Source: Fibrobacter succinogenes (GTDB taxonomy: Bacteria; Fibrobacterota; Fibrobacteria; Fibrobacterales; Fibrobacteraceae). From it: a stretch of 64,000 nt of DNA. Numbering within the stretch: position 1 is the stretch's first letter; each line of letters begins with the position of its first letter. A program made the position numbers and the translations under genes. The DNA is taken from positions 124,001-188,000 of the forward strand of contig CACWNW010000008.1 of the NCBI GenBank assembly GCA_902762305.1, written 5' to 3'. Positions 46,903 through 64,000 of the stretch are shown piece by piece. The notes beneath the pieces were generated by a model. The model was given only the letters and a program-made list of their open reading frames with translations. It ran no database searches and had not been told where the DNA came from.

Positions 46903-47030
46903 ATGTTCGACCGGTTTTGTTTTATATAATCGCCTTTTTGTTTTATGAAACGCGAATTTTGTTTTTTACTTTTGTGAAAATCTTTTATGATATCAAGAAA
47001 TTGGCTAAATTTGTTTAAAAACTCCATTTT

Positions 47031-47077
47031 TGTTTTTTAGAAAATGTTGCAAAGGCGCGCGCGATTATCTAAATTTA
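47031..47077 (+). promoter_or_regulatory. Putative promoter/operator of TIGR02147 gene 2
   Basis: TTG (47047-47049), 20 bases, TAAATTTA (47070-47077), then the ATG at 47085. TGTTTTTTAGAAAAT (47031-47045), similar to TGTGTTCTAAAAT of the other two TIGR02147 genes, lies just upstream. Four TTTTGTTTT-type repeats occupy 46913-47040. Confidence 0.45.
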
Positions 47078-47084
47078 AAGCAGA

Positions 47085-47936
47085 ATGAAGTCGGTTATCG
47101 AATACAGGGATTACCGCGAGTACGTGCTCGAGTATTACCGCGAACGCAAGCGTTGTTCGGCGTTTACGTGGCGTGAGTTTGCACGGCTGGCCGGTTTTGC
47201 CTCGGGATCGTACTTGAAGCTTGTTTGCGACGGCAAGACGCGTCTCTTGGAAGAAGGAGCAAGGAAGACTGCGCTTGCGATGGGGTTGCTTGACTTCGAG
47301 TACGATTACTTCATTCTGATGGTGCGTTACGAGAACGCGAAGACGGAGGAGCATAAAAAGAAATGCTTCGAAGAGATGCAGGCGATTGCCGAGGCGAGCC
47401 ACGTGAAAGTTCTGGGGAGCGAACTTTACGCCTATTACGAGACGTGGAAGCATTCCGTGGTGCGTGAGCTTGCAGTTGCTATGCCCGGCGCGAAGCCGCT
47501 CGAGATGGCGAAGGCCTGCCGGTACCCGATTTCTGCTGCCGACGTGAGCGAAAGCCTGCGTTTCCTTGTGCGCGAGGGCTTCTTGGTGCTTGAACCCGAT
47601 GGCGGGTATAGGCAGACGAGCCGTTCGCTTTCTACGGGGCGCCTGAAGGTCGTCTCGGTGGCGGTTCATTCCATGCTGCGGCAGATGGGCGAGTTCGCGC
47701 TCGAGGCCTTCGATTCGCTCCCGATTTCGGAGCGGCATTTTAGCGGGATTACGATGGGCGTGACTGCCGAAAGCTACGAGAAGGTCCTGGACGAACTGGC
47801 GCGATGCCGCCAGCGTATCGTGTCGATTGTCGCATCAGAAAAGCATCCGGACAAGATTTGTCGCTTGAACATGCAGGTGTTCCCGTTGACAGAAAATTTA
47901 AATAGGGGTCCGGCCGAGCCGGAAAAAGGAGTGTAA
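47085..47936 (+). CDS. TIGR02147-family protein (paralogue 2)
   Basis: 283 residues, with the family opening VIEYRDYREYVLEYYRERKR and the helix-turn-helix-like REFARLAGFASGSYLKLVCDG (about 27-47). The middle HSVVRELAVAMPGAKPLEMA and the C-terminal NMQVFPLTENLN match the paralogues at 11936 and 60488. It is probably a DNA-binding regulator. The C-terminal codons contain AAAAGGAGTG, the Shine-Dalgarno of the lipoprotein gene beginning 3 bases after its stop. It follows the GLUG gene 1 terminator. Confidence 0.86.
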   Translation: MKSVIEYRDYREYVLEYYRERKRCSAFTWREFARLAGFASGSYLKLVCDGKTRLLEEGARKTALAMGLLDFEYDYFILMVRYENAKTEEHKKKCFEEMQAIAEASHVKVLGSELYAYYETWKHSVVRELAVAMPGAKPLEMAKACRYPISAADVSESLRFLVREGFLVLEPDGGYRQTSRSLSTGRLKVVSVAVHSMLRQMGEFALEAFDSLPISERHFSGITMGVTAESYEKVLDELARCRQRIVSIVASEKHPDKICRLNMQVFPLTENLNRGPAEPEKGV

Positions 47937-47939
47937 GGT

Positions 47940-49373
47940 ATGTCTATGCAAGGGATACCGGTGACAAAGTGGATTCGAGTTTTGCCTGCTGTCGTGCTTG
48001 GCGCGATGTTCTGGGCGTGTGCCGACAAGAATACCGCGGGTACGAGCGAAGAGAGCGAAGGCCTCTACGCCGTCAAGGACCTGGAAGTTGCGGGTGTCAC
48101 GCAGAAGGGGCCCTTCGTGAAGGGTTCCTCCGTGACGGTGCGGGGAATCGATTGCCAGACGATGAAGCTCTCGGACGAAATTTTCGAAGGCACGGTCAAG
48201 AGCGACAAGGGCGACTTTGCCATCGGTGGCGTGACGCTCAAGTCGTCGTGCGCGGTGCTCGAGGTGACGGGCCGGTACTTGAACGAACTTTCCGGCAAGG
48301 AATCGTCTGAGGAGTTTACGCTCCATGTGCTGACGGATTTGAAGAAGCACAAGACGGTCAACGTCAACATCCTTACGCATCTGGAATACAATCGCGTGAA
48401 GTCGCTTGTGACCGGGAAGAATTTGTCTTTGGCAGAAGCGAAGGTGCAAGCGGAGCGCGAAGTGCTTGCCGCGTTTGACATTGCTTCGACCGCTACGGAA
48501 TTCGAGGACATGAACATCCTGGAATCGGGCAGCGACAATGCGGCTCTCCTTGCCGTGAGCGTGCTGATGCAGGCGGATGCCGATGCGGCAGAAGTCGCTG
48601 AACGCACATACAAGGCCGCGGCTTCCATCGCGAGGAACGGCCTGTGGGATGATTCCGAAACGAAGAAGGAAATAGCAGAGTGGGCGCTCGGTGCCGAGGC
48701 TAGTGGCGAACTCGAGGCAATCCGCAAGAATGTCGAAAGCTGGAGCGATGCAGGTGTGGCTCCCGCTTTCGAAAATATCGTGGAGGATTTTGGCGAGGCG
48801 GCCGGCAGGAATCCTTATCTGAATCCTGAGGTGGAATACGATTCCCTTGTAGACATGCGCGATGGACAAATCTACGGCGCCGTGAAAATCGGAGGCCTGG
48901 TTTGGATGGCCGAGAACTTGAACTACTACGACACCGTGGCTGTGCCGAGCCTCAGGGACAGCAGCTGGTGCTACGACAAGAACCTTGCAAAATGTGCGGA
49001 GATGGGCCGGCTTTATGCGTGGGCGGTTGCCGGTTCGGTCTGCCCCGATGGCTGGCATTTGCCCGATACGACGGAGTGGAACGCGCTGTTTGATGCGGTG
49101 GGTGGCGATGCCTCTGCGCTCAAGTCGCAGGGCGGCTGGGACGACGGAAGTGGCATGAACGGTTCGGGATTCTCTGTTGTCGCCGGCGGGGAACGCTACC
49201 GCAGCGGCTCGTTTGATTCCGAGGGCCTCAAGGCCTATATATGGAGTTCCGTGGAAATTCCGGACGTAGAAGATGAATCTGCCTACGCGGTGTTTTTCGG
49301 GAGCGACGGCCAGGTGTCTTTCAAGAACTCGTCCAAGAATAACGGGCATTCGGTACGTTGCGTCAAGGACTAG
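47940..49373 (+). CDS. FISUMP lipoprotein with QKGPF domain
   Basis: Lipobox FWAC (Cys27) makes this a 477-residue lipoprotein. Residues 45-300 hold a domain shared with the lipoproteins at 61335 and 63119: VAGVTQKGPFVKGSSVTV, TVKSDKGDFAIGGVTLKSS, and NVNILTHLEYNRVKSLVTGK, then a helical part with AEREVLAAFDI. The C-terminal 170 residues (from DMRDGQIYGAVKIG) are a FISUMP domain (TIGR02145) with VWMAENLNY, GRLYAWAVAG, CPDGWHLPDTTEWNAL and the closing SVRCVKD. FISUMP resembles C-type-lectin/sulfatase-modifying folds; its role is not known. It is paired with TIGR02147 paralogue 2 and followed by GLUG gene 2. Confidence 0.85.
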   Translation: MSMQGIPVTKWIRVLPAVVLGAMFWACADKNTAGTSEESEGLYAVKDLEVAGVTQKGPFVKGSSVTVRGIDCQTMKLSDEIFEGTVKSDKGDFAIGGVTLKSSCAVLEVTGRYLNELSGKESSEEFTLHVLTDLKKHKTVNVNILTHLEYNRVKSLVTGKNLSLAEAKVQAEREVLAAFDIASTATEFEDMNILESGSDNAALLAVSVLMQADADAAEVAERTYKAAASIARNGLWDDSETKKEIAEWALGAEASGELEAIRKNVESWSDAGVAPAFENIVEDFGEAAGRNPYLNPEVEYDSLVDMRDGQIYGAVKIGGLVWMAENLNYYDTVAVPSLRDSSWCYDKNLAKCAEMGRLYAWAVAGSVCPDGWHLPDTTEWNALFDAVGGDASALKSQGGWDDGSGMNGSGFSVVAGGERYRSGSFDSEGLKAYIWSSVEIPDVEDESAYAVFFGSDGQVSFKNSSKNNGHSVRCVKD

Positions 49374-49414
49374 GATAATATATATTGATTAAAAGGGTTG
49401 AGGCGAGAAGTATC

Positions 49415-52400
49415 ATGAAGAAGTTCATTTTTACAGCAATCCTGTCGCTGCTTGCGGCTTACTCGTTTGCGGCGAACGGTACCATGAAGGGTGAAGGTAC
49501 CATCGAAAGCCCGTTCCAGATCGAAGATTACGAAGACCTGAAGGCGATTGGCAAGGGCGCCTACCTGTATTCTTCGGCCTATGAGCTCATGGCCGATATC
49601 GACGCTTCGGCCTCGTATGGCGAATGGTGCAGCGACGGCGTGTGCAACGGGTTCATTCCCTTGGGACTCCAGAAGGATGCCGCGGGCGCTTCCGTTTTTA
49701 CGGGCTATTTTTGGGGGCACGGATTTACGATCAGGAATATGCGTATATGGACGCCCTGTGCGCACAACGTGGGTTTTTTCGCGAACCTGGGTGGATTGGT
49801 CTCACATTTGAACTTTGATTCCCTTGTGGTGTGGGGCGGCCTGGATGATATCTATGCACCCCATTCGAAATATGTCGGTGCCGTTGCGGGCGCGGCTACC
49901 GGGTATATCCTCGATGTGCACGTTACAAAAGGCGAAGTGCAGGGCCTGCAGTATGTGGGCGGCATCGTGGGCAACATGGAAAAGACGACGGCCAATTTGG
50001 ATAATGTCTCGTATGAGGGTGTTGTCCGTGGCGGATCCGCCGTAGGGGGGTTGGCCGGAGGATCCTATGGCACGATTGCCAAAAGCTCTGCGAATGTCAA
50101 GATATATGCGAAGGGAAACACAATTGGAGGTCTGGTTGGCTCAAATAAAGGAAATATTAAAAGAAGCGAAGCGACAGGTTCGATCCACCCCATCGGAAGT
50201 TCAATCTTCGATGTCGGCGGGCTTGTGGGGTATAACATAAGCGGTGGCCACATCTTCGCATCGAGGGCATCCGTGGATATTCTGCCTTTGACCACTGGGA
50301 TTCCCGGAACTGATTTGGGCGGCCTGGTTGGAGACAACTATGGTACAATCGAACAGTCGTATGCTACGGGAAACGTGATTGGCAAAAATGGTGTCGGCGG
50401 CCTGGTTGGTAGCATCTATGGTGGGACTATCCGTAATTGCTTTGCCACGGGAGCGGTGAAGGGAAATAGGTATGTGGGCGGACTCGTTGGCGATGTAGAG
50501 GGATCGGTAAGTACATCGTACTCGGTCGGGCCTGTCGAAATCCTGGATACGACGGAAGTCGTGGATGTGGGTGGCCTGGTCGGTTGGGGAGAAGCGGATA
50601 GTTCCTACTGGAACGTGGAATTCTCCGGATTGGATACAAGCAGCGGCGGGACGGGGCTTTCCGATGCCGCCATGAAAAAGTTCGAAAGCTTTTTCGGATG
50701 GGACACCGAAATCTGGACTATCGACGAGGGGGAATCGTACCCCTACCTGGCCGTGTTCGGCAAGAAGCCCGATGCTGTCGTCTATGCGATTCCCACGGCG
50801 GCATCAAAGTGGCAGGAGAATCCGGTTGTCGCCGCGAACGTCGATACCGGCCGTGAATTGTTCGGCAAATGGACTGGCGCGAACTACCTGAATGCGGCGC
50901 GCGATTCCATCTACTACGGCTACAAGATCGGCTACGTCAAGGAATCCGATACCGTCTGGAGCACTTCGAGCTACATGGCTGTCCCGAACCGGATCGAGAT
51001 TGCGACCCTCGAAGACCTGCAGAAGATCGGCAGGCATGTCGGATTCCCGCTGTTTGCAAATTACGAGTTGACGGCCGATATCGATGCGTCCGGTGCTGAT
51101 TTTGAACCCATCGGTGACGAGCGTGTCTTGTTTACGGGTGGCTTCGACGGCAAGAACCATACCATCAGTGGATTCAGGATTGATGGCCGCAGTAAGGATT
51201 ATTCCGGACTTTTCGGGAAGGCGGAAAAGGCTGTCTTCAGGAACATAGTCTTCAGGAACGCGAATGTCAGCGCGAAGAAAATGGTTGGCGTGCTTGCAGG
51301 CCGGATCGATAAGTCGATTGTGAGCAACGTTGTCTCATACAACGCGACGGTCAAGGGCCATAGCAATGTCGGTGGACTTATCGGTATAGCGTACACGAAC
51401 GTCATGGATCGCCTCGCGAGTACGGGCGCCGTCACGGGAGATACCTGTGTCGGAGGTCTTTTCGGGGCGTTCGCGTCGAAGTTGACAGATGCCTATTCCG
51501 TGAATGTCGTCAAGGGTCATTATTGGGTTGGGGGCGTTATGGGCGGTGCGAATTTGGATTTCCATAATGCCGATACCGTCCTCAATGTTTACTCCGCGAG
51601 CCTTGTGAAGGGCCCCCGCAAGCGTATCGAGGGAATTGCCGGATCCGTGGAGGATTCCTACTACGACGAGAAGTATGCGGACATATACTTCGACAGCACG
51701 CTTATGCCTTCCGAATGGCAGGTCGATCGGTACGAGTTGGGTGAAGCGCTCCCGACTGATTCCCTGCTGAAGCGGGCCACGTTCAAGGGGTTCGACTTTG
51801 AGTCCGTGTGGACTATTCAGGAAGGCGTGTCGTATCCTTATTTCAAGGAAATGGACCCCTCGCTTCCGGGAACATTGGTCGATGACGGAACGAGCTATGC
51901 CCTGGTGGGCGAAGGTACGGCGGAAAAACCGTTCCTGATTACCTGCTACGACGATCTCAAGAATGTCGGCAAGCATGAATTCGGCCTGGACGCCCATTAC
52001 GAATTGCAGGGATTTTATGCAAGCGAATCCGCGACGGACAACTGCGTCGACGGCGTGTGCGCCGGTTTTGAGCCTATCGGCGGAACCGAAGGTTTCAGCG
52101 GGACGTTTACCGGAAACAGGGCCGGCATTTTCAATCTGACCATCAACCGCCCCGACGAGGATTATGTCGGCCTGTTCACGAAACTCAATCCCGGTGCCAA
52201 GGTTTCGGGAATAGGGTTGGCCCAGAGCACCATTGTCGGCAGGAACTATGTGGGTAGCATTGCCGGACTGGACAAGGGTGCCGACCTTGAGCGCGTGGGT
52301 GCGGAAAAAGACCTGGTCGTTCGCGGCAACAACTATGTCGGCATGGTTGTCGGGGCGAAGGAAGGTGGCTCTGCGAAATACAACCATGTCAACGGTACGG

Positions 52401-54457
52401 TCGAAGGCAACGATTATGTCGGATCCTTTGCCGGAAGCTCCAAGAACGCTTCCTATACAGACAACCTTTCCTGGGCGAGTGTTCAGGGCAACGCCAATGT
52501 CGGCGGCTTTGTCGGTATCGATTCCGCTTCGGCGTACACGAACATCTACAGCGTAAGCCATGTGCTCGGTAACGCGAATGTCGGGAACCTGGCGGGGGCG
52601 AGCGAGAAGTCGACCTACAAGTCGGTCTACTACGATGGCGAAGTGTGGCAGTTCGACAACAGCAGTGTCGGAAAGTCGCTCACGACGGCCGAAATGCTGG
52701 ATTCGGCTTCTTACGAGGGCTGGGAATTCGGGACGGTGTGGCTGAAACATGCCGCAGATGCCTATCCCATCCTCGCATGGACAGACGGTGTCAAGTTGAT
52801 TTACCCTGTCAGGACACACGATGTGAAATTCCAGATGGAAGGTTCCGGCACCGAGGAAGACCCGTTCCTCGTCAAGACATACGACGATCTCAAGGCGATC
52901 GGCTACGGGAAATACAAGCTGTCGGCTGTTTATCGTCTTGCAAACGATATCGATGCGTCGGCCTCCTCGAATGAATTGTATTACGTGGATTCTGCCGAGA
53001 GCTATTCGCAGGTGAATTTCGCCAATGGTTTCCCGTCTATCGGGAAGTATCGCGAAAATTCCAAGGGCCTATTCGGAGGCTCCTATGAACACGGGACGGA
53101 TACGACCTTTACTGGCAAATTCCACGGGAACGGTCATGTGATATACGACCTATCCACGAGCACGCACCAAGCGTACCACAATTCGGGATTCTTCCTTGCT
53201 ATCGATTCTTTGGCAATCGTGGATAGCCTTGAAATAAGGTTTGTGGAGTTCTCCGGCGTTACAGCAGGCCTTGCCTATGTGAACAGGGGAACTGTAGATA
53301 ACGTAGCTGTCAAGTGCGATAATCTGGAGGCCGATGTGGGACTTGTCTACCGGAACGAGGGCACCATCCGGCAGAGTTCTTTCGAGGGTTTCTTCGGCGG
53401 TTACGGAATCTACGGGCGTTTCGGCCCTCGCGGGGGTGGCCTGGTCTATATCAACGAGGGAACCATATCGGAATGCTACGTCAATGCGGATGTCGAACGG
53501 GATATGCCGTATGTCATAGCCGGCTTTGCCGTGGAGAATCACGGAATAATCGAAAATTCGTTCTCGATGGGTGATGTACTCGGAATGAACGATTCCGCCT
53601 ATTCGGCTGTTTATCTGAATACGGGTGTCATCAGCAAGTCTTATTCTGTCGGAAAGGGCTATCGCGCCTTTGCATACGAGAACAAGGGTTCCATCGAAAA
53701 TTCGTACGCTCTCAAGACGAGGTATTTTGTGGAACAGTCCGACAACGGGAAGCTTGTCAACGGCACGAATTACCATACGTCCCAGGAGGCCTCCATGGGA
53801 GCTATGTACATGCGTAATGAATACAGCGATTTTGATTTCGATTCCGTGTGGTTCATCAAGGAAGGTTTCTCGACACCGATGCTGCGCGGCATGCCGAACA
53901 TGCCTGTGCCTATGAGCGTGACTCTGCGGTTCGAAGGGAACGAGTCGCTTGAAAAGAGGGTTTGCGATAAAATTATCGAAGATACCTTCGTGATGGATTC
54001 GTCGGCGACGAAATTGGTCAAGCTGAACGTCGCGACCATTGTCCGACTTGATTCCTTGGAAAAGGCTAAGAATCCCTCTGGAACGTTCGTCATCCTGTAT
54101 AACGTGGGAATGGTGCTCGGAAATGACACGCTCTGGAGCGATGAGACCCTTGCGGTACTGGAGCTCGAGAAATCTGTTGGCTTGCGTAAGGTTGCCACCC
54201 CGTCGGGAGCCCGCTTCGGTGCCGCCTTCCGAGGCTCGAATGTGGCGCTCCGTTTCGAGATTCCTGCCGCGGGTGCAGTGAAGTTTATGCTCATGGACAT
54301 GCAGGGCCGTGCCGTTTACGCGGCTGACCTTGGAAAGCGAGCGGCGGGCACCCATTCCGAAACGATTGCCGCCGAAGGAATCGCCCGTGGCCGCTACGTC
54401 GGCGTGTTGCAGGTGAACGGCAAGGTGACCGAAAAAATTTTGATGGCTAGAGACTAG
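49415..54457 (+). CDS. Giant secreted GLUG-repeat protein 2 (1680 aa)
   Basis: The start at 49415 encodes a signal peptide (MKKFIFTAILSLLAAYSFAA); a longer upstream frame does not fit. After NGTMKGEGTIESPFQIEDYE the protein runs through four modules, beginning about residues 22, 520, 835 and 1145, each with an SPF/DLK-IG opening, YELTADIDAS-type segment, a GxFDGKNHTI motif and then VGGLVG-type GLUG motifs (about fifteen in all). The last 80 residues (VALRFEIPAAGAVKFMLMDM ... GRYVGVLQVNGK) resemble a type IX sorting domain. It is a tandem paralogue of the next gene, and probably a beta-solenoid surface protein. Confidence 0.78.
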   Translation: MKKFIFTAILSLLAAYSFAANGTMKGEGTIESPFQIEDYEDLKAIGKGAYLYSSAYELMADIDASASYGEWCSDGVCNGFIPLGLQKDAAGASVFTGYFWGHGFTIRNMRIWTPCAHNVGFFANLGGLVSHLNFDSLVVWGGLDDIYAPHSKYVGAVAGAATGYILDVHVTKGEVQGLQYVGGIVGNMEKTTANLDNVSYEGVVRGGSAVGGLAGGSYGTIAKSSANVKIYAKGNTIGGLVGSNKGNIKRSEATGSIHPIGSSIFDVGGLVGYNISGGHIFASRASVDILPLTTGIPGTDLGGLVGDNYGTIEQSYATGNVIGKNGVGGLVGSIYGGTIRNCFATGAVKGNRYVGGLVGDVEGSVSTSYSVGPVEILDTTEVVDVGGLVGWGEADSSYWNVEFSGLDTSSGGTGLSDAAMKKFESFFGWDTEIWTIDEGESYPYLAVFGKKPDAVVYAIPTAASKWQENPVVAANVDTGRELFGKWTGANYLNAARDSIYYGYKIGYVKESDTVWSTSSYMAVPNRIEIATLEDLQKIGRHVGFPLFANYELTADIDASGADFEPIGDERVLFTGGFDGKNHTISGFRIDGRSKDYSGLFGKAEKAVFRNIVFRNANVSAKKMVGVLAGRIDKSIVSNVVSYNATVKGHSNVGGLIGIAYTNVMDRLASTGAVTGDTCVGGLFGAFASKLTDAYSVNVVKGHYWVGGVMGGANLDFHNADTVLNVYSASLVKGPRKRIEGIAGSVEDSYYDEKYADIYFDSTLMPSEWQVDRYELGEALPTDSLLKRATFKGFDFESVWTIQEGVSYPYFKEMDPSLPGTLVDDGTSYALVGEGTAEKPFLITCYDDLKNVGKHEFGLDAHYELQGFYASESATDNCVDGVCAGFEPIGGTEGFSGTFTGNRAGIFNLTINRPDEDYVGLFTKLNPGAKVSGIGLAQSTIVGRNYVGSIAGLDKGADLERVGAEKDLVVRGNNYVGMVVGAKEGGSAKYNHVNGTVEGNDYVGSFAGSSKNASYTDNLSWASVQGNANVGGFVGIDSASAYTNIYSVSHVLGNANVGNLAGASEKSTYKSVYYDGEVWQFDNSSVGKSLTTAEMLDSASYEGWEFGTVWLKHAADAYPILAWTDGVKLIYPVRTHDVKFQMEGSGTEEDPFLVKTYDDLKAIGYGKYKLSAVYRLANDIDASASSNELYYVDSAESYSQVNFANGFPSIGKYRENSKGLFGGSYEHGTDTTFTGKFHGNGHVIYDLSTSTHQAYHNSGFFLAIDSLAIVDSLEIRFVEFSGVTAGLAYVNRGTVDNVAVKCDNLEADVGLVYRNEGTIRQSSFEGFFGGYGIYGRFGPRGGGLVYINEGTISECYVNADVERDMPYVIAGFAVENHGIIENSFSMGDVLGMNDSAYSAVYLNTGVISKSYSVGKGYRAFAYENKGSIENSYALKTRYFVEQSDNGKLVNGTNYHTSQEASMGAMYMRNEYSDFDFDSVWFIKEGFSTPMLRGMPNMPVPMSVTLRFEGNESLEKRVCDKIIEDTFVMDSSATKLVKLNVATIVRLDSLEKAKNPSGTFVILYNVGMVLGNDTLWSDETLAVLELEKSVGLRKVATPSGARFGAAFRGSNVALRFEIPAAGAVKFMLMDMQGRAVYAADLGKRAAGTHSETIAAEGIARGRYVGVLQVNGKVTEKILMARD

Positions 54458-54468
54458 GAGAGAGAAAG

Positions 54469-57400
54469 ATGATGAAGTTGCGTTTTGTTTTCGCTGCCGT
54501 TCTGTCGCTGCTTGCGATCCATTCGTTCGCGGCGAACGGCACCATGAAGGGTGAGGGTTCTGCCGAAAAGCCTTTCCAGATCGAGGATTACGAAGACCTG
54601 AAGGCGATAGGCAAGGGCGCCTACCTGTATTCATCGAATTATGTGCTGACTGCCGATATCGACGCTTCGGCATCGGAGCATGAGATGTGCAGTGACGAGG
54701 GCGGTTGCAACGGCTTTATCCCTATCGGCAAGTACAAGGACGCCGCCGACAGTACTGCGTTCTGGGGTACCATCGACGGCCAGAACCATACGATCAGCAA
54801 CTTGAAAATCTGGATGCCTTGTAGAAGCGATGTCGGCTTTATCGTTTACTTGGTAGGAACAGTCCGCAATTTAAATTTTGACCGTCTGGTGGTGACGGGG
54901 GGGGTCAAGGAATCTCGGCATGTCGGTAGCGTAACGCCTAGGCTTATCGGCTCTATAGAAAACGTGCACGTCACGAATGGATTTGTGCAGGGGGAGGAAC
55001 GCGTGGGTGGCATCGTTGGGGGGGCATTAAAGGCCATTGGGTATGGCAATGTCAAGGGGAGTGTTTACAACGTATCGTTCCAAGGCGAGATCAAGGGTAA
55101 GACCTGCGTGGGAGGCATTGTCGGCGAATCGGGTATCTCGGTGAACGAAGCTGTTGCGAATGTGGATATCATTGCTACGAACGCATACATCGGCGGCATT
55201 GTCGGGTATAATTCTGGCTATGTAACGAATAGCCGTGCGAGTGGCACTATAACGCCTGCTTACGAGGAAGTGGATGATGTCGGCGGCATTGCTGGGTATT
55301 CTGGCCGATGGGCGACGATTTCACGGTGTGTTTCGGAAATGGATTTGCTGAACGTAACCCGTTCATCGATGATTTGCCACCTTGACGAAGGCGTGGGCGG
55401 AATTGTTGGAACCAATCATGGTTCTGTGAGTGAATCGTATGCCAAGGGTACTATAGAAGGTACGGAGGATGTGGGCGGAATTGCTGGGGTGAGTTATGGC
55501 AGTATTCAGAATACTTTTGCCTTAGGTAGCGTCAAGGGCGTAGAATCTGTCGGCGGCCTTGTCGGTGGAAATGCGTATCATGCCTACGATGATAGCCATG
55601 GGTCTATTCTCAACAGCTATGCCGCCAATGTGGTCAAGGGCGAATTGGATGTTGGCGGGCTTGTCGGCTTCAATAGCGAAATGGTAGAGAGTTCCTATTG
55701 GAATACTGAAATTTCGGGACTCGATACGAGTGCGGGCGGTACGGGACTTACTACTGCAAAGATGATGAAGTTCTCTTCGTTTGCTGGTTGGGATACTCTC
55801 GGTTATGACGGGTATTTTCCGGTCTATCTGGATACGTGCGATTACTATTCGCTTTTCCGATATTGCTTTCATGTTACCGGCAGCTATGTCAATATCTGGA
55901 AAATAGACGAAGGTAAATCTTTCCCGTATCTTGGAATAATTTCTACTGTACCGGCGTCCACGGTTCCGGTCGCAGTTCCCACATTTGCTTCGAAGTGGCA
56001 GGAACAGCCGAAGGTTGCTGCGATGGTAGATATCGGCGAGGAACTGTTCGGCAAATGGCTGGATTTAGCTCAGGTAAACGAAACGAAGGATTCAATTTAT
56101 TATTGGTACCGAATCGGCTATGCGGTTGGTTCCGATACGGTCTGGGGAACGTCTAGCTACATGGCCGTACCGAATAAAATTGAAATTTCGACTTATGCCC
56201 AGCTCAAGAAAATCGGTCGTGATGTTGCGTATCCGCTGATGGCCAATTATGAACTGACGGCGGATATCGATGCGTCTTCGTCGAAGTTCGAACCTATCGG
56301 TGACAGTATACGTGCATTTACGGGAATGTTTGACGGTAAGAACCATACCATCAGGAATCTGGAAATCGATGAACCCGATCGCGATTTTACGGGCTTGTTC
56401 GGATATGTCGAGGATGCCATAATCGAGAATTTGACGCTAGAAAATGCGAAAGTGACTGGCTCTTGGATGGTCGGTGCTTTGGCTGGTGAAATACGTACTT
56501 CTATTGTTCTCCATGTTGTTTCGTTGAACGGCGATGTCCAGGGTGAGGAGTCTGTCGGTGGCTTGATTGGCTCCTGTATTGCCGATAGCATTAGATTTGT
56601 CGGGACTACAGGGAAAGTCAAGGGAAGAGAAGAAGTTGGTGGCCTAATCGGTTATATGGATGGTCGCTTTAGGTTGTCCGATGCATTCTCGGTCAATGTT
56701 GTCAAGGGCTATGAGGATGTTGGTGGTGCTATTGGCTACAATTACGAATTTGGTTCACAAGAAGGAAGTAGATCTATTTTGCGCATCTATTCGGCAAGCA
56801 TGATCAAGGCTCCGGAAAATGAGAGAGAAGGGCTTTCCGGGCATGACTACTACATGCTGGACGAAGGGACATGCTTCTTTGATAGTACCGTTGCGCACGC
56901 GAGAAGGGGTGGACTTCCGACTGCGACAATGCTGAAAAAATCTACCTATGCGGGTTACGATTTTGATTCTGTGTGGGAAATCCAGGAAGGCGTTTCTTAC
57001 CCGTATTTCAAGGGCATGGCCCCGATATTGCCCGGCACGCTCATAGACGATGGTACGGTAAATGTGCTCGCCGGCGCCGGTACCGAAAGGAGTCCCTACA
57101 AGATTGGCAGCTATGATGAACTCAAGTACATTGGCAAGTACGAATACGGACTCGACAAGTACTACAAACTTGTCGGCAATATCAATGCCCAGTCTTCGTT
57201 CAAGGAAAACTGCAATGCTGATAGCAGCCTGTGCAAGGGATTCGAACCGATTGGCGAATTCAGCGGCGTGTTCATTGGGAACAATAAGGTGATTGCGGGC
57301 CTGAATATCAACCGACCCGACGAGGATTCGGTTGGCCTGTTCCGCGTATTGGCAAGTGGCGCCAAGGTGACTGGAATAGTGTTTGATACGGCCTCGTATT

Positions 57401-60285
57401 TTGGGGAAAATTATTCACTCAGTTATAGCCATGATAAGGGCTTCATTCGCGGCAAGAACTACGTCGGCGCTCTCGCCGGTGTCGATAAGGGCGGTGAGGT
57501 TGAAAGAATTTTCATGAAATATGATGTCTCCGGTGAAAATTATGTGGGCGGAATTGTCGGAAAGAAAACGGCGGGTTCCATTTCCTTGAGTGCATCGAGG
57601 TTCAAGGTGCTCGGCGAGGAATATGTGGGTGGTCTTGCGGGCTTACTGTATAAGGCCGATGTGACGGATTGCTATTCTATTGCGAATGTAGTGGGAACGA
57701 AGTATGTTGGCGGTTTGGCAGGTTATTCCGACAATGCAAATGTGAAAAATTCCTTTGCCGCAGGTAATATCGAAGGTGGGTCGAAATGGGGAGGCCTTGC
57801 TGGTGCCGACAATAAATCGATGTACGCTTCGGCCTATTATGATTCGTCTCTCTGGTGTGTCAATACGACTGCCGCAGGGGAACTTCGCAGTACACAGCAG
57901 ATGGTCAAAAAGGAAAACTACAAAGGATGGGATTTCGATACAACATGGAATATCGCCGCAGATACAACTTATCCCTATTTGGCATGGCTTACTAAAGCTT
58001 ACTACTTATCCAAAACAATGAAGGAAAAAATTTATCCGAATTTAAATGTGGATCAGACTATGCTGAAAATGGTGGGGTCCGGTACAGAGCAAGATCCGTT
58101 CCTGATTAAGACTTACGGTGACCTCAAATCCATTGGCTTCGGCAAATATAAGCTTTCGTCTGTATATCGCCTTGCTAATGATATCGACGCCTCTGTATCT
58201 AAGACTGATTCCCTTTTTAGCGGACGCGGGATAGGGTTTAAGCCTATTGGTAAAAAGGAAAATTTGGAAGAATATTGTAACTGTTATGGAGTTGTTCTTG
58301 GCGGTTATTCGAGTCAGGACTCTTCAAGATTGTTTACCGGAAAGATTTATGGCGGTGGCTACAGTATCGACGGCCTCTTTATGAGTTATTATGACAGTGA
58401 ACCGAAGGGCTTTATAGACACAATTGCAAAAACGGGTGTTGTTGATAGTCTGACTTTTAAGAATTATAATATAATCGCGAACGGTGGTTCCGAATATCTT
58501 GGGGCTCTAGCTTCTGTGAATATGGGCTTGGTAAGCCACATTGATATGGATGTTTCTCTGGGAAATTATTATAAAGGAGCCGGCCTTGTATATGACAATA
58601 AGGGACGTATTGAAAGTTGCTCGGTCAAGGGAACATTTGATGGAGGTGGTATTGCAGGTGTCTCTGTAATGAATGACGGAGATATTGTCAATACGAAAGT
58701 TGACGCAGAATGGATTGACTCTTCGTCGTTTGCCAGCGGAATTACGTTGGTCAACAGGGGCCTTATCGAAAATGTTTCCGCTAATGTATCGATATATGGC
58801 GGCTCTGGTCCGATAGCGGGAATTGCGACGCTGAATACGGGTAAAGGGCAAATTGTTGATGCGTCTGCAAATATTGATGCGAAGGTGGTTAGGCGAAATG
58901 GTGTCGTGTCTTATTCCGTTGAACACAAAATAATGGATTACGAATACGAGTACTATGATGTCGATGGAATAGGTGGCCTTGTCGCAATTGATAGCGGAAT
59001 CATCAGGAACTCTACGGCATCCGGTGTTATTGACGCTCCGCAATCGGCCTATGTTGGCGGTTTGGTTGGCAAGGCTTATGGCGGGGAGCTGAAAGGCCTG
59101 CATGCGTCTGTCGATATTACAGGAATGAGTGCTATTGGCGGATTGGTTGGCCTGAATCAAACAAGTATTTCTGAAAGCTATGCGACAGGAAATGTCAAGG
59201 GAGTTTCGGCATATGGATCTTCTGGGGCTTTTGTTGGGCAAAATGATGGTCGGATTGATCGTTCGTTTGCAATAGGAGATGTGGAAAGTGGTAGTGGTTT
59301 TGTCGGCATGAATAATGGTGTCATCAAACAATCCTATTCAACAGGAGATGTTGAGGGTCGTGGCAGCTTTGCTGGAATAAATCAGTCTGTAATTGAAGAT
59401 TGCTATTCGACAGGTGATGTGTATCTGAGAGATGATGCTTATGGTTTTGGTTTTGTTGTTGTTAATGGCAATGATGCTTTGGTTCGTGGATACGCTTCTG
59501 GTAATGTTAAAAATGGAATGCTCCTTTGTGGGGGCTTGCCGTCGATTTCGCAGCCTTCGGACGAGTTCTACTACCTTGCCGACAACTGCATCGATTCTTT
59601 GTCGAAGGGCGTGGGGCTTACGTCGAGTCAGATGACGCAGAAAAAATCCTTCTCCGCGTTCGATTTCGATTCCGTGTGGTACATGAAGGAGGGTGTGACC
59701 TACCCGCTGCTCCGCGGTATGCCGAACCCGCCGATGGTTGCGGATGAGAAGGCCGTGTACAAGGACAATGTTGGACTTACGAAGGATATCCACGTCAGGC
59801 TGCTCGAAGATGCCTTCGTGATGGATACGACGGCAACGAAGGTGCTCGCGCTGGATTACGCAAGCGAGGCCCTGCTCGATTCCCTCGAGAAAGCAAAGTC
59901 ACCGTTCGGGAAATTTGAGGTCTCCTACCGCGTGGGTATTTTGCTTGACTCCGACACGCTCTGGAGCAGGCCCGCCACGATGCGGCTTGAACTCGAGAAA
60001 ACCATCGGAATTCCCGAAATTGCTTCTGCGCATGGTCGCGGGTTCGGTGCCGCGTTCCGTGGCCCGCATGTGGCGCTTCGCTTCGAGATTCCTGCTGCGG
60101 GTGCTGTGAAATTCTCGCTTATGGATTTGCAGGGGCGCGTCGTTTATGCGATGGACCTCGGCAACCGTGCGGTGGGCGCCTACTTCGAGACTCTCGCTGC
60201 TGCCGGAATTTCCCGCGGCCGTTATGTCGGCGTGCTGCAGGTGGACGGCCGTGTCACCGACAAGGTCTTGATGCTCAGAAAATAG
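54469..60285 (+). CDS. Giant secreted GLUG-repeat protein 3 (1938 aa), paralogue of the previous gene
   Basis: AGGAG lies 8 bases before the ATG at 54469 (a second ATG is next to it). Signal peptide MMKLRFVFAAVLSLLAIHSFAA is followed by the same opening as gene 2 (NGTMKGEGSAEKPFQIEDYE). Four modules repeat, with about eighteen VGG-[LI]-VG motifs, and one longer GLUG block in the C-terminal third (about 1330-1680). The C-terminal 80 residues match gene 2 nearly position by position (VALRFEIPAAGAVKFSLMDL). The stretch 58200-59500 is AT-richer than the flanks, so this gene seems to be a mosaic. It follows gene 2 by 11 bases and ends in a terminator. Confidence 0.78.
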   Translation: MMKLRFVFAAVLSLLAIHSFAANGTMKGEGSAEKPFQIEDYEDLKAIGKGAYLYSSNYVLTADIDASASEHEMCSDEGGCNGFIPIGKYKDAADSTAFWGTIDGQNHTISNLKIWMPCRSDVGFIVYLVGTVRNLNFDRLVVTGGVKESRHVGSVTPRLIGSIENVHVTNGFVQGEERVGGIVGGALKAIGYGNVKGSVYNVSFQGEIKGKTCVGGIVGESGISVNEAVANVDIIATNAYIGGIVGYNSGYVTNSRASGTITPAYEEVDDVGGIAGYSGRWATISRCVSEMDLLNVTRSSMICHLDEGVGGIVGTNHGSVSESYAKGTIEGTEDVGGIAGVSYGSIQNTFALGSVKGVESVGGLVGGNAYHAYDDSHGSILNSYAANVVKGELDVGGLVGFNSEMVESSYWNTEISGLDTSAGGTGLTTAKMMKFSSFAGWDTLGYDGYFPVYLDTCDYYSLFRYCFHVTGSYVNIWKIDEGKSFPYLGIISTVPASTVPVAVPTFASKWQEQPKVAAMVDIGEELFGKWLDLAQVNETKDSIYYWYRIGYAVGSDTVWGTSSYMAVPNKIEISTYAQLKKIGRDVAYPLMANYELTADIDASSSKFEPIGDSIRAFTGMFDGKNHTIRNLEIDEPDRDFTGLFGYVEDAIIENLTLENAKVTGSWMVGALAGEIRTSIVLHVVSLNGDVQGEESVGGLIGSCIADSIRFVGTTGKVKGREEVGGLIGYMDGRFRLSDAFSVNVVKGYEDVGGAIGYNYEFGSQEGSRSILRIYSASMIKAPENEREGLSGHDYYMLDEGTCFFDSTVAHARRGGLPTATMLKKSTYAGYDFDSVWEIQEGVSYPYFKGMAPILPGTLIDDGTVNVLAGAGTERSPYKIGSYDELKYIGKYEYGLDKYYKLVGNINAQSSFKENCNADSSLCKGFEPIGEFSGVFIGNNKVIAGLNINRPDEDSVGLFRVLASGAKVTGIVFDTASYFGENYSLSYSHDKGFIRGKNYVGALAGVDKGGEVERIFMKYDVSGENYVGGIVGKKTAGSISLSASRFKVLGEEYVGGLAGLLYKADVTDCYSIANVVGTKYVGGLAGYSDNANVKNSFAAGNIEGGSKWGGLAGADNKSMYASAYYDSSLWCVNTTAAGELRSTQQMVKKENYKGWDFDTTWNIAADTTYPYLAWLTKAYYLSKTMKEKIYPNLNVDQTMLKMVGSGTEQDPFLIKTYGDLKSIGFGKYKLSSVYRLANDIDASVSKTDSLFSGRGIGFKPIGKKENLEEYCNCYGVVLGGYSSQDSSRLFTGKIYGGGYSIDGLFMSYYDSEPKGFIDTIAKTGVVDSLTFKNYNIIANGGSEYLGALASVNMGLVSHIDMDVSLGNYYKGAGLVYDNKGRIESCSVKGTFDGGGIAGVSVMNDGDIVNTKVDAEWIDSSSFASGITLVNRGLIENVSANVSIYGGSGPIAGIATLNTGKGQIVDASANIDAKVVRRNGVVSYSVEHKIMDYEYEYYDVDGIGGLVAIDSGIIRNSTASGVIDAPQSAYVGGLVGKAYGGELKGLHASVDITGMSAIGGLVGLNQTSISESYATGNVKGVSAYGSSGAFVGQNDGRIDRSFAIGDVESGSGFVGMNNGVIKQSYSTGDVEGRGSFAGINQSVIEDCYSTGDVYLRDDAYGFGFVVVNGNDALVRGYASGNVKNGMLLCGGLPSISQPSDEFYYLADNCIDSLSKGVGLTSSQMTQKKSFSAFDFDSVWYMKEGVTYPLLRGMPNPPMVADEKAVYKDNVGLTKDIHVRLLEDAFVMDTTATKVLALDYASEALLDSLEKAKSPFGKFEVSYRVGILLDSDTLWSRPATMRLELEKTIGIPEIASAHGRGFGAAFRGPHVALRFEIPAAGAVKFSLMDLQGRVVYAMDLGNRAVGAYFETLAAAGISRGRYVGVLQVDGRVTDKVLMLRK

Positions 60286-60314
60286 ACCGCGCAAAACCGT
60301 TTGCGAATAGATTC

Positions 60315-60338
60315 AGGCCCGCTTGCGTGGGCCTTTTT
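60315..60338 (+). terminator. Rho-independent terminator of GLUG genes 2-3
   Basis: AGGCCCGC/GTGGGCCT with the loop TTGC is followed by five T. Confidence 0.85.
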
Positions 60339-60378
60339 GTATCCTGGCGCTCATCCTGTATTCCTGGAATACAGACTT

Positions 60379-60482
60379 TGTGTTCCAATATTGCTAAAAT
60401 TGTAAAATTTACACAAAAATGGTAAAATCTGCTCAAAAACAGCATTTTTGTGTTCTAAAATTGTGAAAACAACCTATATTTG
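60379..60482 (+). promoter_or_regulatory. Putative operator and promoter of TIGR02147 gene 3
   Basis: TGTGTTCTAAAAT (60449-60461) is identical to the motif upstream of TIGR02147 gene 1; a second related copy starts TGTGTTCCAATAT at 60379. TATATTTG (60475-60482), matching TAnnTTTG, lies 5 bases before the ATG at 60488, so the mRNA would be almost leaderless. Confidence 0.5.
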
Positions 60483-60487
60483 TGTAC

Positions 60488-61348
60488 ATGAAGGAAATCA
60501 TTGAATATACAGATTACCGCAAGTTCATTCAGGATTACTACGATGAACGCAAGCGCAGCTCGGCATTCACGTGGCGCGATTTCGCGCGTGAGGCCGGGTT
60601 CTCGTCGGCAGTTTACCTGAAGTACGTTTGTGAGGGGAAGAAGAACCTGAGCGTAGGGGCCGCCGGTTCTGTCGCAAGCGCCATGGGCCTCGCCGGTTTC
60701 GAAAGCACATACTTTGTCCTGATGGTTTCGTATGCCCATGCAAAGGGGGATGAGGCGAAGCGGGCCGCGTTCGAGGAAAGGTGTGCGCTGGCGAGAGCCC
60801 ATAAGGTGCGCGTGCTCGGGAACGAGGAATTCGACTATTTCAAGTCGTGGAAGAATCCGGTTCTGCGCGAACTTGCCCCGCATATGCCGGGCGCAAAACC
60901 GCTCGAGATGGCGCACGCCTGCAAACAGAAGATTTCTGCTGCCGAAGTGAGCGAGACGCTCGACTTTCTGGTGCGTTCAAAACTCCTGAAGAAGGACAGG
61001 GAAGGGAACTACCGCCAGACGGATAAGTCCATTTCTATGGGCCCGGTGGATGCGGTTCCCGTGGCGGCCCGCGACATGCAGCGGCAAATGGGGGAGTTCG
61101 CGGTGAAGGCCCTGGACCTGCCGCTTTCTGAACGCGACATGTCGGGGCTTACCCTCGGGCTTACGCGCCGTGCGTACGAACGGATTCGGAAGGAACTGGC
61201 TGATTGCCGCCGCCGCATCGTGGCCATTGCCGCGGAAGACGACGAGACGGAACAGGTGTATCGCCTGAACTTGCAGCTGTTCCCGATGAGCGAGAAATTG
61301 AATACTGAAAATAAAATTGATAAGGAGGAAAAAAATGAAAAGGTTTAA
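60488..61348 (+). CDS. TIGR02147-family protein (paralogue 3)
   Basis: The 286-residue protein starts MKEIIEYTDYRKFIQDYYDE, aligning with MKSVIEYRDYREY of paralogue 2; an upstream GTG at 60482 is rejected for that reason. The helix-turn-helix-like DFAREAGFSSAVYLKYVCEG, NPVLRELAPHMPGAKPLEMA and LNLQLFPMSEKLN segments are all present. Its last codons contain AAGGAGG (61322-61328), the ribosome-binding site of the overlapping lipoprotein gene at 61335. Probably a DNA-binding regulator of its cassette. Confidence 0.86.
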   Translation: MKEIIEYTDYRKFIQDYYDERKRSSAFTWRDFAREAGFSSAVYLKYVCEGKKNLSVGAAGSVASAMGLAGFESTYFVLMVSYAHAKGDEAKRAAFEERCALARAHKVRVLGNEEFDYFKSWKNPVLRELAPHMPGAKPLEMAHACKQKISAAEVSETLDFLVRSKLLKKDREGNYRQTDKSISMGPVDAVPVAARDMQRQMGEFAVKALDLPLSERDMSGLTLGLTRRAYERIRKELADCRRRIVAIAAEDDETEQVYRLNLQLFPMSEKLNTENKIDKEEKNEKV

Positions 61349-63107
61349 GTACAAGTTTTTTGGGGAGTGTTTGGTTTTTTCGTTGGTGTTTGCCATCCTG
61401 TTGACTTTCTTTGCCGCCTGTTCCAAGGACGTAGCTGGCGGTTCATCGGAAGATGCTGGCTTCCTTGCGCTTATAAACAAGAAAATCTCGGGTGCCGTGC
61501 AGAAGGGACCCTTTGTAACGGGCTCCAGTGTGGTCCTCAGGGAAACGTCGGCAGCGGGGAACCTTGAACCTACGGGTAGGGAATTTGAGACAACGGTCGT
61601 CAATGACGAGGGTAAATTTAAGTTTGGAGATCTTGATCTGGAATGCCAGTATGTGCTGCTTTCTGCCGAGGGCTACTATACCCGCGAATCTGACGGTTCT
61701 CGTTCTGAATGCCCTGTGCGCCTTGATGCGGCTACTAATTTGAACAAACGCAATACGGCGAACATCAACCTCCTGACGCATTTTGAGTACAAGCGAGTTC
61801 TGAAATTGGTCGAGGAAGGTAAGACTTTCGCCGAAGCCAAGAAACAGGCTTCCCGGGAAGTTCTCGGTGCGTTCGGGGTCGAGATAGAAGTCTCTTCTGC
61901 GGAGGACCTGGATATATTCAATACATCGGAAGGCGACAGGATCCTTTACATCATCAGTCAATATGTTGATAACAGTATATGGGAGCCTTGGGACGGCGAA
62001 GGCGGCGATTCTGCCTTTTGGGCCTATCTTTATGGCGAAGATAGTGACAATCGCAATATAGACTGTTCTAGATTGCAGGCCTTTATTGACGGGTTCGCTG
62101 ACGATTATGCCGATGACGGTGTCCTCAGCGATACCATTATGCAATGGCTCGCGTCGGATGCCTATTTTGACATTCGGGAATACCGCCGCCTGGAAGGCTT
62201 CGATTATGAAACGTGGGAAAAGGATGAGTATTCGCTAGAGGCTTATGAGAAATTTAACGATAGGAAACAAAGATACGAATTCGGCAAGTCCCTGTTCTTG
62301 AACTATATGGGGCTCGAGATGTGCACAGAAGACCTTTTAGGGGAATATAGGGAATTCTACAAGCCGATCAAGGGTTTGGATACCACTGATTATTCGCGGG
62401 TGCTCAGGGATGGTTATTTCCTTTGCGACGGTTCTATTTGGAAATTGACGACGAAAGGATACTTGGATTCGCTCAAGATGAAAATTGACCATGAATCCGG
62501 AATGATGACGGATCCGCGAGATGGAAGGACTTACAAGACGGTCGGCTTTGAGTTCAATGGAATAAAGTATGAATGGATGGCGGAAGACCTCAAGTACAAA
62601 TCCTCTTCAGGGCTCTACAGTTGGACGACAGCCTTGCAAATTGACAAAAAATACATGAAGAAGGCTGTTGAAGAAGGTGTGGTTGGATCGAAACATCAAG
62701 GAATCTGCCCTGACGGTTGGCATGTGTCCAATGACTTGGAATGGAGAGCCTTGGTTGGTTATGTCGGGGATTATCATAACTTGTTCACTGGAAGATGGGA
62801 TGGCTTTGGTATGCTCTATAATCGATTTGACTTCAACCTTGAACTTCCTAAGGGCGAAAAGGAAATTATAGAATATCACACATATCCGGCTGTTTATGTT
62901 GCTCAAGATGTTTCCGAAGACATTGAATTTTGGATGAGTGTGTATGAAGATTCCCATGATGAAGAACTTTTGGAAATGGTTGAGAGCCTTCGTGAGAATG
63001 GGAGGCATGGTTATGCCAATGTCTTCTTTGCTGTCGCGTATAATTGGGGATCTTATATATCAAATGAACCGCAAAAATCGGGTCGTATCCGTTGCGTGAA
63101 GGATTAG
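61335..63107 (+). CDS. QKGPF-domain lipoprotein with a divergent FISUMP end
   Basis: Lipobox FAAC (Cys29) is preceded by a typical lipoprotein signal. AAGGAGG 6 bases before the ATG fixes the start; it overlaps the regulator gene by 14 bases. Residues about 50-220 carry SGAVQKGPFVTGSSVVL, NDEGKFKFGDLDL, and NINLLTHFEYKRVLKLVEEG, homologous to the lipoproteins at 47940 and 63119. A long middle part (about 200-380) is acidic and helical. The C-terminal 200 residues (from TDPRDGRTYKTVGFEF) are a FISUMP domain with YEWMAEDLKY and ICPDGWHVSNDLEWRAL and the closing RIRCVKD, but with a larger insertion than usual. Confidence 0.82.
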   Translation: MKRFKYKFFGECLVFSLVFAILLTFFAACSKDVAGGSSEDAGFLALINKKISGAVQKGPFVTGSSVVLRETSAAGNLEPTGREFETTVVNDEGKFKFGDLDLECQYVLLSAEGYYTRESDGSRSECPVRLDAATNLNKRNTANINLLTHFEYKRVLKLVEEGKTFAEAKKQASREVLGAFGVEIEVSSAEDLDIFNTSEGDRILYIISQYVDNSIWEPWDGEGGDSAFWAYLYGEDSDNRNIDCSRLQAFIDGFADDYADDGVLSDTIMQWLASDAYFDIREYRRLEGFDYETWEKDEYSLEAYEKFNDRKQRYEFGKSLFLNYMGLEMCTEDLLGEYREFYKPIKGLDTTDYSRVLRDGYFLCDGSIWKLTTKGYLDSLKMKIDHESGMMTDPRDGRTYKTVGFEFNGIKYEWMAEDLKYKSSSGLYSWTTALQIDKKYMKKAVEEGVVGSKHQGICPDGWHVSNDLEWRALVGYVGDYHNLFTGRWDGFGMLYNRFDFNLELPKGEKEIIEYHTYPAVYVAQDVSEDIEFWMSVYEDSHDEELLEMVESLRENGRHGYANVFFAVAYNWGSYISNEPQKSGRIRCVKD

Positions 63108-63118
63108 GAGAATAGGGT

Positions 63119-64000
63119 ATGTTTAAGCAAAAGGATTTGAATATGAAAAAATGGTTTTTGCCGGCATTTGCTTCTACGGCACTCTTTATGGCCGCGTGTA
63201 CCAGCTCCGACGGGGAAAACCTTGCGGGGGGCACCTCGGAAGATGCGGGAATCACCGCGGTCAAGGACTGGGAAGTGGCGGGTGTGTCGCAGAAGGGGCC
63301 GTTCGTTACGGGTTCCGCAGTAACGGTGCAGGAACTTGACGGCATCACGCTCAAGCAGACGGGCAAGAGCTTCAAGGGCACCATCAAGAGCGACAAGGGC
63401 GACTTCGCCATCAAGGATATCAATCTGCAGTCGCAGTATGCTATCCTCGAGGCCTCGGGTTACTACCGCGATGAGATTACGGGCAAGAAGTCCACGGGTA
63501 CGGTGACGCTCCGCGCGCTGACCGATCTCAGCAACCGCAAGATGGTGAACATCAACCTGCTCACGCACCTGGAATACGAGCGCGTGATGTACCTCGTAAC
63601 CGAGAAGAAGAAATCTATTGCAGCGGCAAAGGCGCAGGCGGACGAGGAAATCCTTGCGGCGTTCGGCATCGAGGGCGACTTCGGGAATTCCGAAGACCTG
63701 AATATCTTCGAGTCGGGCGACGGCAACGCGGCACTGCTTGCAATAAGCGTGCTGATGCATGCGGATGCCGACGTGGCGGGCCTTACCGAGCGCATGGGCG
63801 AGTTCAGTATCGCGATTGCGGAAGGCGGTGACTGGGAAGATGCCGATACCAAGGCCGTGATTGCGGACTGGGCGTGCGATGCCGACCTCAAGGGGACTCT
63901 CGCGAATGTGCGGGGGAATGTCGAAGACTGGAAGTATGCGGATTCCGTGCCCGCCTTCGAGAAGTACGTGACGAACTTCTGGTGGGACAACTACGGACTC
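63119..64000 (+). CDS. QKGPF-domain lipoprotein, 3' end outside window
   Basis: The frame is open from the ATG at 63119 to the right edge (294 codons). AGGAG lies 8 bases before this ATG; an ATG at 63143 with AAGGA 7 bases ahead is a possible second start. The lipobox is FMAAC (Cys27). The visible part holds VAGVSQKGPFVTGSAVTV, IKSDKGDFAIKDINLQS and NINLLTHLEYERVMYLVTEK, followed by the ADEEILAAFGIEGDF and GNAALLAISVLMHADADVAG segments, and thus matches the protein at 47940 along its length. A FISUMP end outside the window is expected. It follows the previous gene by 11 bases, so the cassette holds two such lipoproteins. Confidence 0.85.
   Translation, partial: MFKQKDLNMKKWFLPAFASTALFMAACTSSDGENLAGGTSEDAGITAVKDWEVAGVSQKGPFVTGSAVTVQELDGITLKQTGKSFKGTIKSDKGDFAIKDINLQSQYAILEASGYYRDEITGKKSTGTVTLRALTDLSNRKMVNINLLTHLEYERVMYLVTEKKKSIAAAKAQADEEILAAFGIEGDFGNSEDLNIFESGDGNAALLAISVLMHADADVAGLTERMGEFSIAIAEGGDWEDADTKAVIADWACDADLKGTLANVRGNVEDWKYADSVPAFEKYVTNFWWDNYGL

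Follow-up and report, generated by a model that had tools for sequence, protein, structure and literature searches.

A QKGPF lipoprotein domain of Fibrobacter as one interchangeable part of regulator–lipoprotein gene pairs

What is the function of an unnamed domain that recurs in three lipoproteins of one locus? The question is raised by a window of 64,000 nucleotides (the whole stretch of DNA analysed here) from Fibrobacter succinogenes (assembly GCA_902762305.1, contig CACWNW010000008.1, positions 124,001-188,000 of the forward strand), which holds open reading frames at 47940-49373 (477 residues), at 61335-63107 (590 residues) and from 63119 or 63143 to past position 64000, and whose three products share an N-terminal region, here called the QKGPF domain after one of its motifs. 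A preliminary description had proposed a surface role for this domain linked to FISUMP, a C-terminal domain, and its feature list omitted two genes, at 47085-47936 and 60488-61348, which encode regulators of the TIGR02147 family. The presence upstream of such a putative DNA-binding regulator is the strongest link of the QKGPF domain, which is one interchangeable part of two-gene regulator–lipoprotein units, or cassettes, whose lipoproteins carry a short tag beside the lipidated cysteine. The parts found in the window are the following.

47085..47936, + strand: TIGR02147 (DUF4423) regulator of cassette 1 (TIGR02147 268.8 bits, cut-off 50, residues 1-270; PF14394 80 bits)
47940..49373, + strand: lipoprotein 1, with signal peptide, tag, QKGPF domain and FISUMP; starts 3 nucleotides (nt) past the regulator stop
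48036..48062, + strand: tag of lipoprotein 1, AGTSEESEG, shortly past the lipobox cysteine
48072..48794, + strand: QKGPF domain of lipoprotein 1, limits approximate
48843..49370, + strand: FISUMP domain of lipoprotein 1 (TIGR02145, residues 302-477)
60488..61348, + strand: TIGR02147 (DUF4423) regulator of cassette 2 (TIGR02147 326.4 bits, cut-off 50, residues 3-271)
61335..63107, + strand: lipoprotein 2, with signal peptide, tag, QKGPF domain and diverged FISUMP; 14-nt overlap with the regulator
61434..61460, + strand: tag of lipoprotein 2, AGGSSEDAG
61482..61979, + strand: QKGPF domain of lipoprotein 2, comprising the beta part and the initial helices, those further on having diverged
63119..64000, + strand: lipoprotein 3 (744 residues, FISUMP past the window edge), second lipoprotein gene of cassette 2
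63224..63250, + strand: tag of lipoprotein 3, AGGTSEDAG
63269..63991, + strand: QKGPF domain of lipoprotein 3, confident part of the modelled copy (AlphaFold2, predicted local distance difference test (pLDDT) 88.3, predicted TM-score (pTM) 0.85)

Both regulators are members, far over the cut-off, of TIGR02147 (Fsuc_second, DUF4423), a family to which Pfam and NCBIfam assign no function, and share 55% identity. Lipoproteins 1 and 2 directly follow them, with gaps of +3 and -14 nt, and lipoprotein 3 stands second in such an operon. Throughout this genome, all 34 TIGR02147 genes directly precede a lipoprotein gene, with gaps of -35 to +20 nt, and lipobox-like signal peptides are found in 34/34 partners by a rule of our own, against a background of 68 lipoprotein-like genes among 327 in a 400-kb sample scored by a similar permissive rule. 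TIGR02147 is present in 156 of the 167 genomes of the phylum, and a lipoprotein lies next to it in 58 of 59 readable loci, the 60 sampled (30 from congeneric species and 30 from 18 genomes of 18 genera, with L156 dropped at a contig end) representing fewer independent cases because many same-genus loci are orthologous. Several of their lipoproteins (L141, L150, L160, L161 and L168-L171) were missed by the lipobox rule and were read by eye instead. The pairing of TIGR02147 with a tagged lipoprotein was not found in print by a text search on the family names, and the DUF4423 passage of a Bdellovibrio proteome table, which lists Bd3700, is silent on pairing; the two-gene units are apparently a large undescribed set in rumen Fibrobacter. 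As a separate observation, eight genomes of one genus (g21, G007-G014) gave no TIGR02147 match, and one of them (G007, locus L312) still has a QKGPF lipoprotein, which is untagged.

The ectodomains attached to these lipoproteins are diverse. The 34 partners fall into 12 groups without sequence similarity between groups, and family scans, run on 20 of the 34 as well as on the window proteins, show that they include QKGPF-FISUMP (Fib_succ_major), Pectate_lyase_4, Laminin_G_3 and CBM_4_9 proteins. One TIGR02147-paired lipoprotein (L081:4166-5839), for example, bears a pectate-lyase domain (PF00544, 76.8 bits). Since pectate-lyase, laminin-G, CBM4/9 and FISUMP domains occur among the partners, the family assignments suggest plant polymers or similar surfaces as the ligands.

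Common to these unrelated ectodomain groups is a tag, roughly AGGTxExxN, that closely follows the lipidated cysteine. Its consensus in nearly all partners is [AS]-G-[GTA]-x-[ST]-E-x-x-N within ~15 residues of the cysteine, and in QKGPF proteins it ends in D-x-G. The QKGPF proteins serve as a built-in control, since some copies of the domain are encoded beside a regulator and others are not. A regular expression for the tag, written after seeing the QKGPF tags and matching only 25/34 of all partners in this genome, is found in 62 of 63 QKGPF lipoproteins directly after TIGR02147, in 9 of 12 that are second in the operon and in 2 of 13 that are unpaired, as well as in 3 of 68 background lipoproteins. 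In the sole adjacent miss (L179) the cysteine was wrongly chosen and the tag is visible; L235 and L245 have no readable cysteine, and five loci marked 'noinfo' were left out of the contrast. A position-specific scoring matrix trained on non-QKGPF lipoproteins only gave scores of at least 8 to 31/63 adjacent versus 0/13 unpaired proteins (Mann-Whitney p 3e-7, the rows being related and not independent), its weaker performance on QKGPF proteins being due to their tag ending in D-x-G and not in T-x-N. In other genera, 4/4 adjacent QKGPF lipoproteins carry the tag, and inspection by eye showed it in 0/19 readable unpaired ones. From a further set of 30 loci, L314, L322 (in-frame stop) and L330 were left out of the analysis, and L306, L317 and L331 are uncounted, having no upstream sequence or no readable cysteine. 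As the tag is mostly present beside TIGR02147 and mostly absent from unpaired QKGPF proteins, it goes with the regulator and not with the ectodomain.

The regulator itself was modelled with a pLDDT of 85 and a pTM of 0.56, giving an N-terminal HigA/XRE-like helix-turn-helix (HTH; Z 8.4) and an ArsR-like winged helix (Z ~8), from which it follows that TIGR02147 likely binds DNA. Candidate binding sites lie upstream of the TIGR02147 genes as two copies of about TTTTGT-N6-AAA, 70-73 bp apart, with a sequence that differs from cassette to cassette. In the window they are the following.

46957..46968, + strand: candidate twin operator of cassette 1, upstream copy, TTTTGTTTTTTA, the identical 12-mer recurring 71 bp downstream
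47028..47039, + strand: candidate twin operator of cassette 1, downstream copy
60377..60388, + strand: candidate twin operator of cassette 2, upstream copy, TTTGTGTTCCAA, 70 bp ahead of the second copy
60447..60458, + strand: candidate twin operator of cassette 2, downstream copy, TTTGTGTTCTAA

The cassette 1 pair is weak alone because it is T-rich, and the cassette 2 pair has a single occurrence in the genome. Twin sites with this spacing were counted in 19/34 cassettes, versus 14/157 background upstream regions and 2/46 background regions of similar GC content. The second copy often lies just ahead of a TTGAC/TATATT promoter, promoter-like sequences being found in 15/34 cassettes versus 11/157 background regions. 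In other Fibrobacter species the twin spacing is seen in 9 of 30 non-redundant cassettes, while other spacing bins average 2.3 with a maximum of 5. The more alike two regulators are, the more alike their sites tend to be (Mantel rho 0.34-0.38, p 0.001). A genome-wide search with four of the sites found them at TIGR02147 promoters only, except for three one-mismatch matches that looked like chance, and showed no wider regulon. Two further repeats were noted near these sites: a perfect palindrome with 9-bp arms, CTGTATTCC-T-GGAATACAG, at 60357-60375, just upstream of the cassette 2 twin sites, whose arms resemble the site, and a repeat spaced 20-22 bp in several cassettes.

The QKGPF domain that the preliminary description had put forward is borne out by pairwise BLASTP, with E values of 6e-82 (lipoproteins 1 and 3, 51% identity over 281 columns), 3e-45 (2 and 3, 43% over 199 columns) and 7e-32 (1 and 2, 38% over 195 columns). 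Its stated length of 250 residues holds for lipoproteins 1 and 3, while in lipoprotein 2 the alignment covers only the first 195 residues or so, beyond which the helical part has diverged. Of the motifs quoted, QKGPFVxGS[SA]V fits all three proteins exactly, KGDFAI stands in lipoproteins 1 and 3 with GKFKFGD in lipoprotein 2, and the helical motif, slightly misquoted, actually reads EVLAAFDI, EVLGAFGV and EILAAFGI. FISUMP, assigned to two of the proteins, is carried by all three: lipoprotein 1 scores 166.3 bits and lipoprotein 2 57.7 bits with TIGR02145 (cut-off 41.65), the latter also reaching 33.8 with PF09603, just below the cut-off of 33.9, and in lipoprotein 3 the domain lies beyond the window (PF09603 101.4 bits, residues 380-569). 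At E ≤ 1 in Pfam and NCBIfam, the lipoproteins matched FISUMP only, plus weak noise, which leaves the QKGPF region uncovered and agrees with the earlier remark that no named family was known for it; membership of a known family was also rejected after profiles of 12 and 20 sequences, searched against the sequences of the Protein Data Bank (PDB), returned chance matches only.

The proposal of a beta domain plus a helical bundle fits the AlphaFold2 model, built from a 12-sequence alignment, which predicts a seven-strand beta sandwich followed by seven helices. The carboxypeptidase-regulatory-like label given to the beta part survives as a loose fold resemblance only, none of the three proteins matching PF13620 at E ≤ 1 and transthyretin-like folds scoring Z ~4. 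In a VIA-align comparison of the model with the PDB, the best match was the N-terminal non-heme domain of PgcA from Geobacter sulfurreducens (PDB 9i0d, 9i0e; Z 11.6, 167/201 residues, root mean square deviation 4.2), with the second PgcA entry at Z 9.4 and the next unrelated row at Z 5.0, values that are provisional, coming from a predicted model. Foldseek listed nothing at E ≤ 0.001 and placed PgcA at E 0.047, and hmmsearch with the 12- and 20-sequence QKGPF profiles did not list the PgcA domain at E ≤ 10, a missing sequence match that does not exclude kinship. Provisionally, then, the predicted fold is not new and resembles the solved PgcA domain. KGP-like domains occur in other deltaproteobacterial lipoproteins.

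A three-sequence QKGPF profile run on this genome gave 20 matches in 19 proteins, whose C termini carry FISUMP (15), GH5 cellulase (1), histidine phosphatase (2, one assigned because it resembles the other) or, judged by eye, no recognisable domain (1). The link to FISUMP that had been drawn thus stands for 15 of the 19; other copies precede GH5 cellulase or histidine-phosphatase domains, and one relative is joined to a SusD-family protein. Two unpaired QKGPF lipoproteins of this genome (L112:3087-5411 and L113:1448-3763) have a GH5 cellulase or histidine-phosphatase domain replacing FISUMP. FISUMP (Fib_succ_major; TIGR02145, PF09603) is a domain separate from QKGPF, with 113 matches in this genome, most outside QKGPF proteins. 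The word FISUMP had no match in a literature text search. A passage of one paper describes the domain as one that putatively binds cellulose and may be an analogue of cohesins (PMC4704652). Within the phylum, QKGPF is found in 98/167 genomes and 9/40 genera. A profile scan of genome contigs confirmed 270 stretches, the best 80 of which (76 loci) are all titled Fibrobacter or Fibrobacterales, and relatives in other phyla may stand below these; a plasmid scan gave two chance-level matches only. Restriction of the domain to Fibrobacterota was ruled out by a scan of viral contigs, where a 38%-identity relative forms the N terminus of a SusD-family (PF07980) lipoprotein on an IMG/VR contig, with a methyltransferase-like gene beside it (L272:2914-5076); this contig looks non-Fibrobacter and may be bacterial rather than viral.

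Between lipoprotein 1 and the second cassette, positions 49385-60285 hold two giant GLUG-repeat proteins (PF07581, ~1690 and ~1938 residues), whose genes follow that of lipoprotein 1 at intervals of roughly twelve nt and could be part of its operon. Both have similar C-terminal tails, which resemble secretion-sorting domains.

Taken together, these features are probably best read as self-contained, autoregulated surface-binding units, an explanation in which we place somewhat more belief than doubt. The cytoplasmic double-HTH regulator would bind twin sites specific to its cassette, upstream of the promoter from which it is itself expressed, the lipoprotein, with its short conserved tag beside the lipid anchor, would be co-translated with it, and each regulator would thereby determine how much of its surface protein is made. 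The lipoprotein would display its ectodomain on the cell surface, and the QKGPF domain, a predicted transthyretin-like beta sandwich with helices, would be the membrane-proximal spacer that separates the lipid anchor from interchangeable binding or catalytic domains at the C terminus, serving in Fibrobacter mainly as one ectodomain type of the two-gene cassette. The tag could be either a read-out element joining the lipoprotein to the regulator or a sorting signal that marks this class of lipoproteins.

Several observations weigh against this explanation. Plain autoregulation does not explain the dependence of the tag on the regulator, and both tag and pairing have exceptions: a QKGPF lipoprotein 153 nt past TIGR02147 is clearly untagged (L311), another lipoprotein has no clear tag (L169) and a third none (C9:19739), two unpaired proteins are tag-like (C2:260867 and L216), and one TIGR02147 regulator has no lipoprotein beside it (L159). 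Lipoproteins were assigned by our own simple rules and not by SignalP. The fold scores of TIGR02147 are at the level of common arrangements, with a pTM of 0.56. Twin sites at 70-73 bp, a spacing picked after inspecting the first set, are missing from 15/34 cassettes and do not exceed background outside the genus (2/30 versus 1.8), and the covariation of site and regulator is not HTH-specific when corrected for the remainder of the regulator (partial 0.07, p 0.18).

The strongest competitor, which we consider plausible but short of probable, takes the tag as a sorting or export signal of a special surface-lipoprotein route, with TIGR02147 merely toggling adhesin display. The tag has the position of known lipoprotein sorting signals, the ectodomains are adhesin-like, the tested sites were not found outside the cassettes, and no transmembrane step would be required; a general surface signal should, however, stay on regulator-free QKGPF-FISUMP lipoproteins, which are mostly untagged, and the tag is matched by just 3/68 of the sampled lipoproteins. 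More doubtful is a sensor in which ligand binding by the ectodomain would alter the tagged, lipid-proximal end and be relayed to TIGR02147 through a putative inner-membrane or proteolytic step, by analogy with RsgI-SigI. That the tag follows the regulator and not the ectodomain is expected of a read-out element, and the regulator-first order and polymer-binding-type ectodomain repertoire recall what is described for sigI-rsgI (PMC4711584), but no part of the lipoprotein lies in the cytoplasm, the pair lacks a constant third gene, tag and regulator covary only marginally when ectodomains are unrelated (rho 0.18, p 0.05), and no wider regulon is visible because the four tested sites lie only at cassette promoters. 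We regard as rather unlikely the one-to-one form of surface sensing, a new class of unit in which each lipoprotein would read a different polymer through its own ectodomain and the tag would be what is sensed through the envelope, to be answered by a double-HTH regulator and twin operators private to the cassette. This would give 34 parallel, self-contained circuits, with QKGPF as a spacer that transmits from ectodomain to tag.

Two other explanations bear on the domain and on the pairing itself. QKGPF could be a release domain, cleavage in or after which would free the C-terminal domains from the lipid anchor; it is the fold match that suggests this, since PgcA, itself lipid-anchored, is described as cleaved where the non-heme domain ends, Met252 and Pro253 flanking the cut (PMC11520253), and was also recovered cut at residue 127 (PMC5732950), but with sequence similarity to PgcA not detected by the profile searches we hold this unlikely. 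Least credible, and in our view improbable, is that the lipoproteins are common surface adhesins whose neighbouring regulators have nothing to do with them, so that the pairing reflects only the duplication of one ancestral gene pair. Both TIGR02147 (34 genes) and FISUMP are indeed expanded paralogue families here, but the pairing spans many genera and families of the phylum, one genome holds 12 unrelated ectodomain groups, and most unpaired copies are untagged.

Fibrobacterota is a phylum central to fibre digestion, and the passage of the F. succinogenes S85 genome paper that treats the transcriptional control of cellulases leaves it unanswered, with few recognisable regulators nearby (PMC3079729). 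Against this background, one genome has 34 dedicated regulator–lipoprotein cassettes, many with candidate operators and some with polymer-binding-type ectodomains, the TIGR02147 family gains a partner and a candidate DNA site, and the unnamed QKGPF domain gains a predicted fold and a context. By itself, the domain would rank as a new but ordinary relative of a known fold. Its likeness to the PgcA domain, seen with the predicted model, spans beta sandwich and helices, and the two occupy the same place, because both adjoin the lipid anchor of a lipid-anchored protein that is extracellular in the case of PgcA. PgcA is not known to have a TIGR02147 partner. That protein differs further in carrying heme domains instead of FISUMP, being described as a Geobacter cytochrome whose first domain is cofactor-free and is followed by three heme domains (PMC11520253, PMC5732950).

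As a whole, the cassettes most resemble the SigI/RsgI pairs of Clostridium thermocellum, in which there are likewise many paralogous pairs with the transcription regulator gene first. SigI/RsgI pairs are described as autoregulated, with variable RsgI ectodomains that are polysaccharide-binding or enzyme-like (CBM3, CBM42, PA14, GH10; PMC4711584, PMC12203970), and variable ectodomains of polysaccharide-binding type, as judged from their family matches, appear to be matched by the TIGR02147 partners. As to ligand-dependent autoregulation of the cassettes, what was seen is candidate operators only. The regulators differ, TIGR02147 being a predicted double-HTH protein and not a sigma factor like SigI; at E ≤ 1 in Pfam and NCBIfam, the window regulators matched no sigma-factor family, only DUF4423/TIGR02147. 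So do their partners: RsgI spans the membrane and has an anti-sigma domain on the cytoplasmic side, a domain not found in the 20/34 partners scanned or in the window lipoproteins, whereas the partner of TIGR02147 is a lipoprotein.

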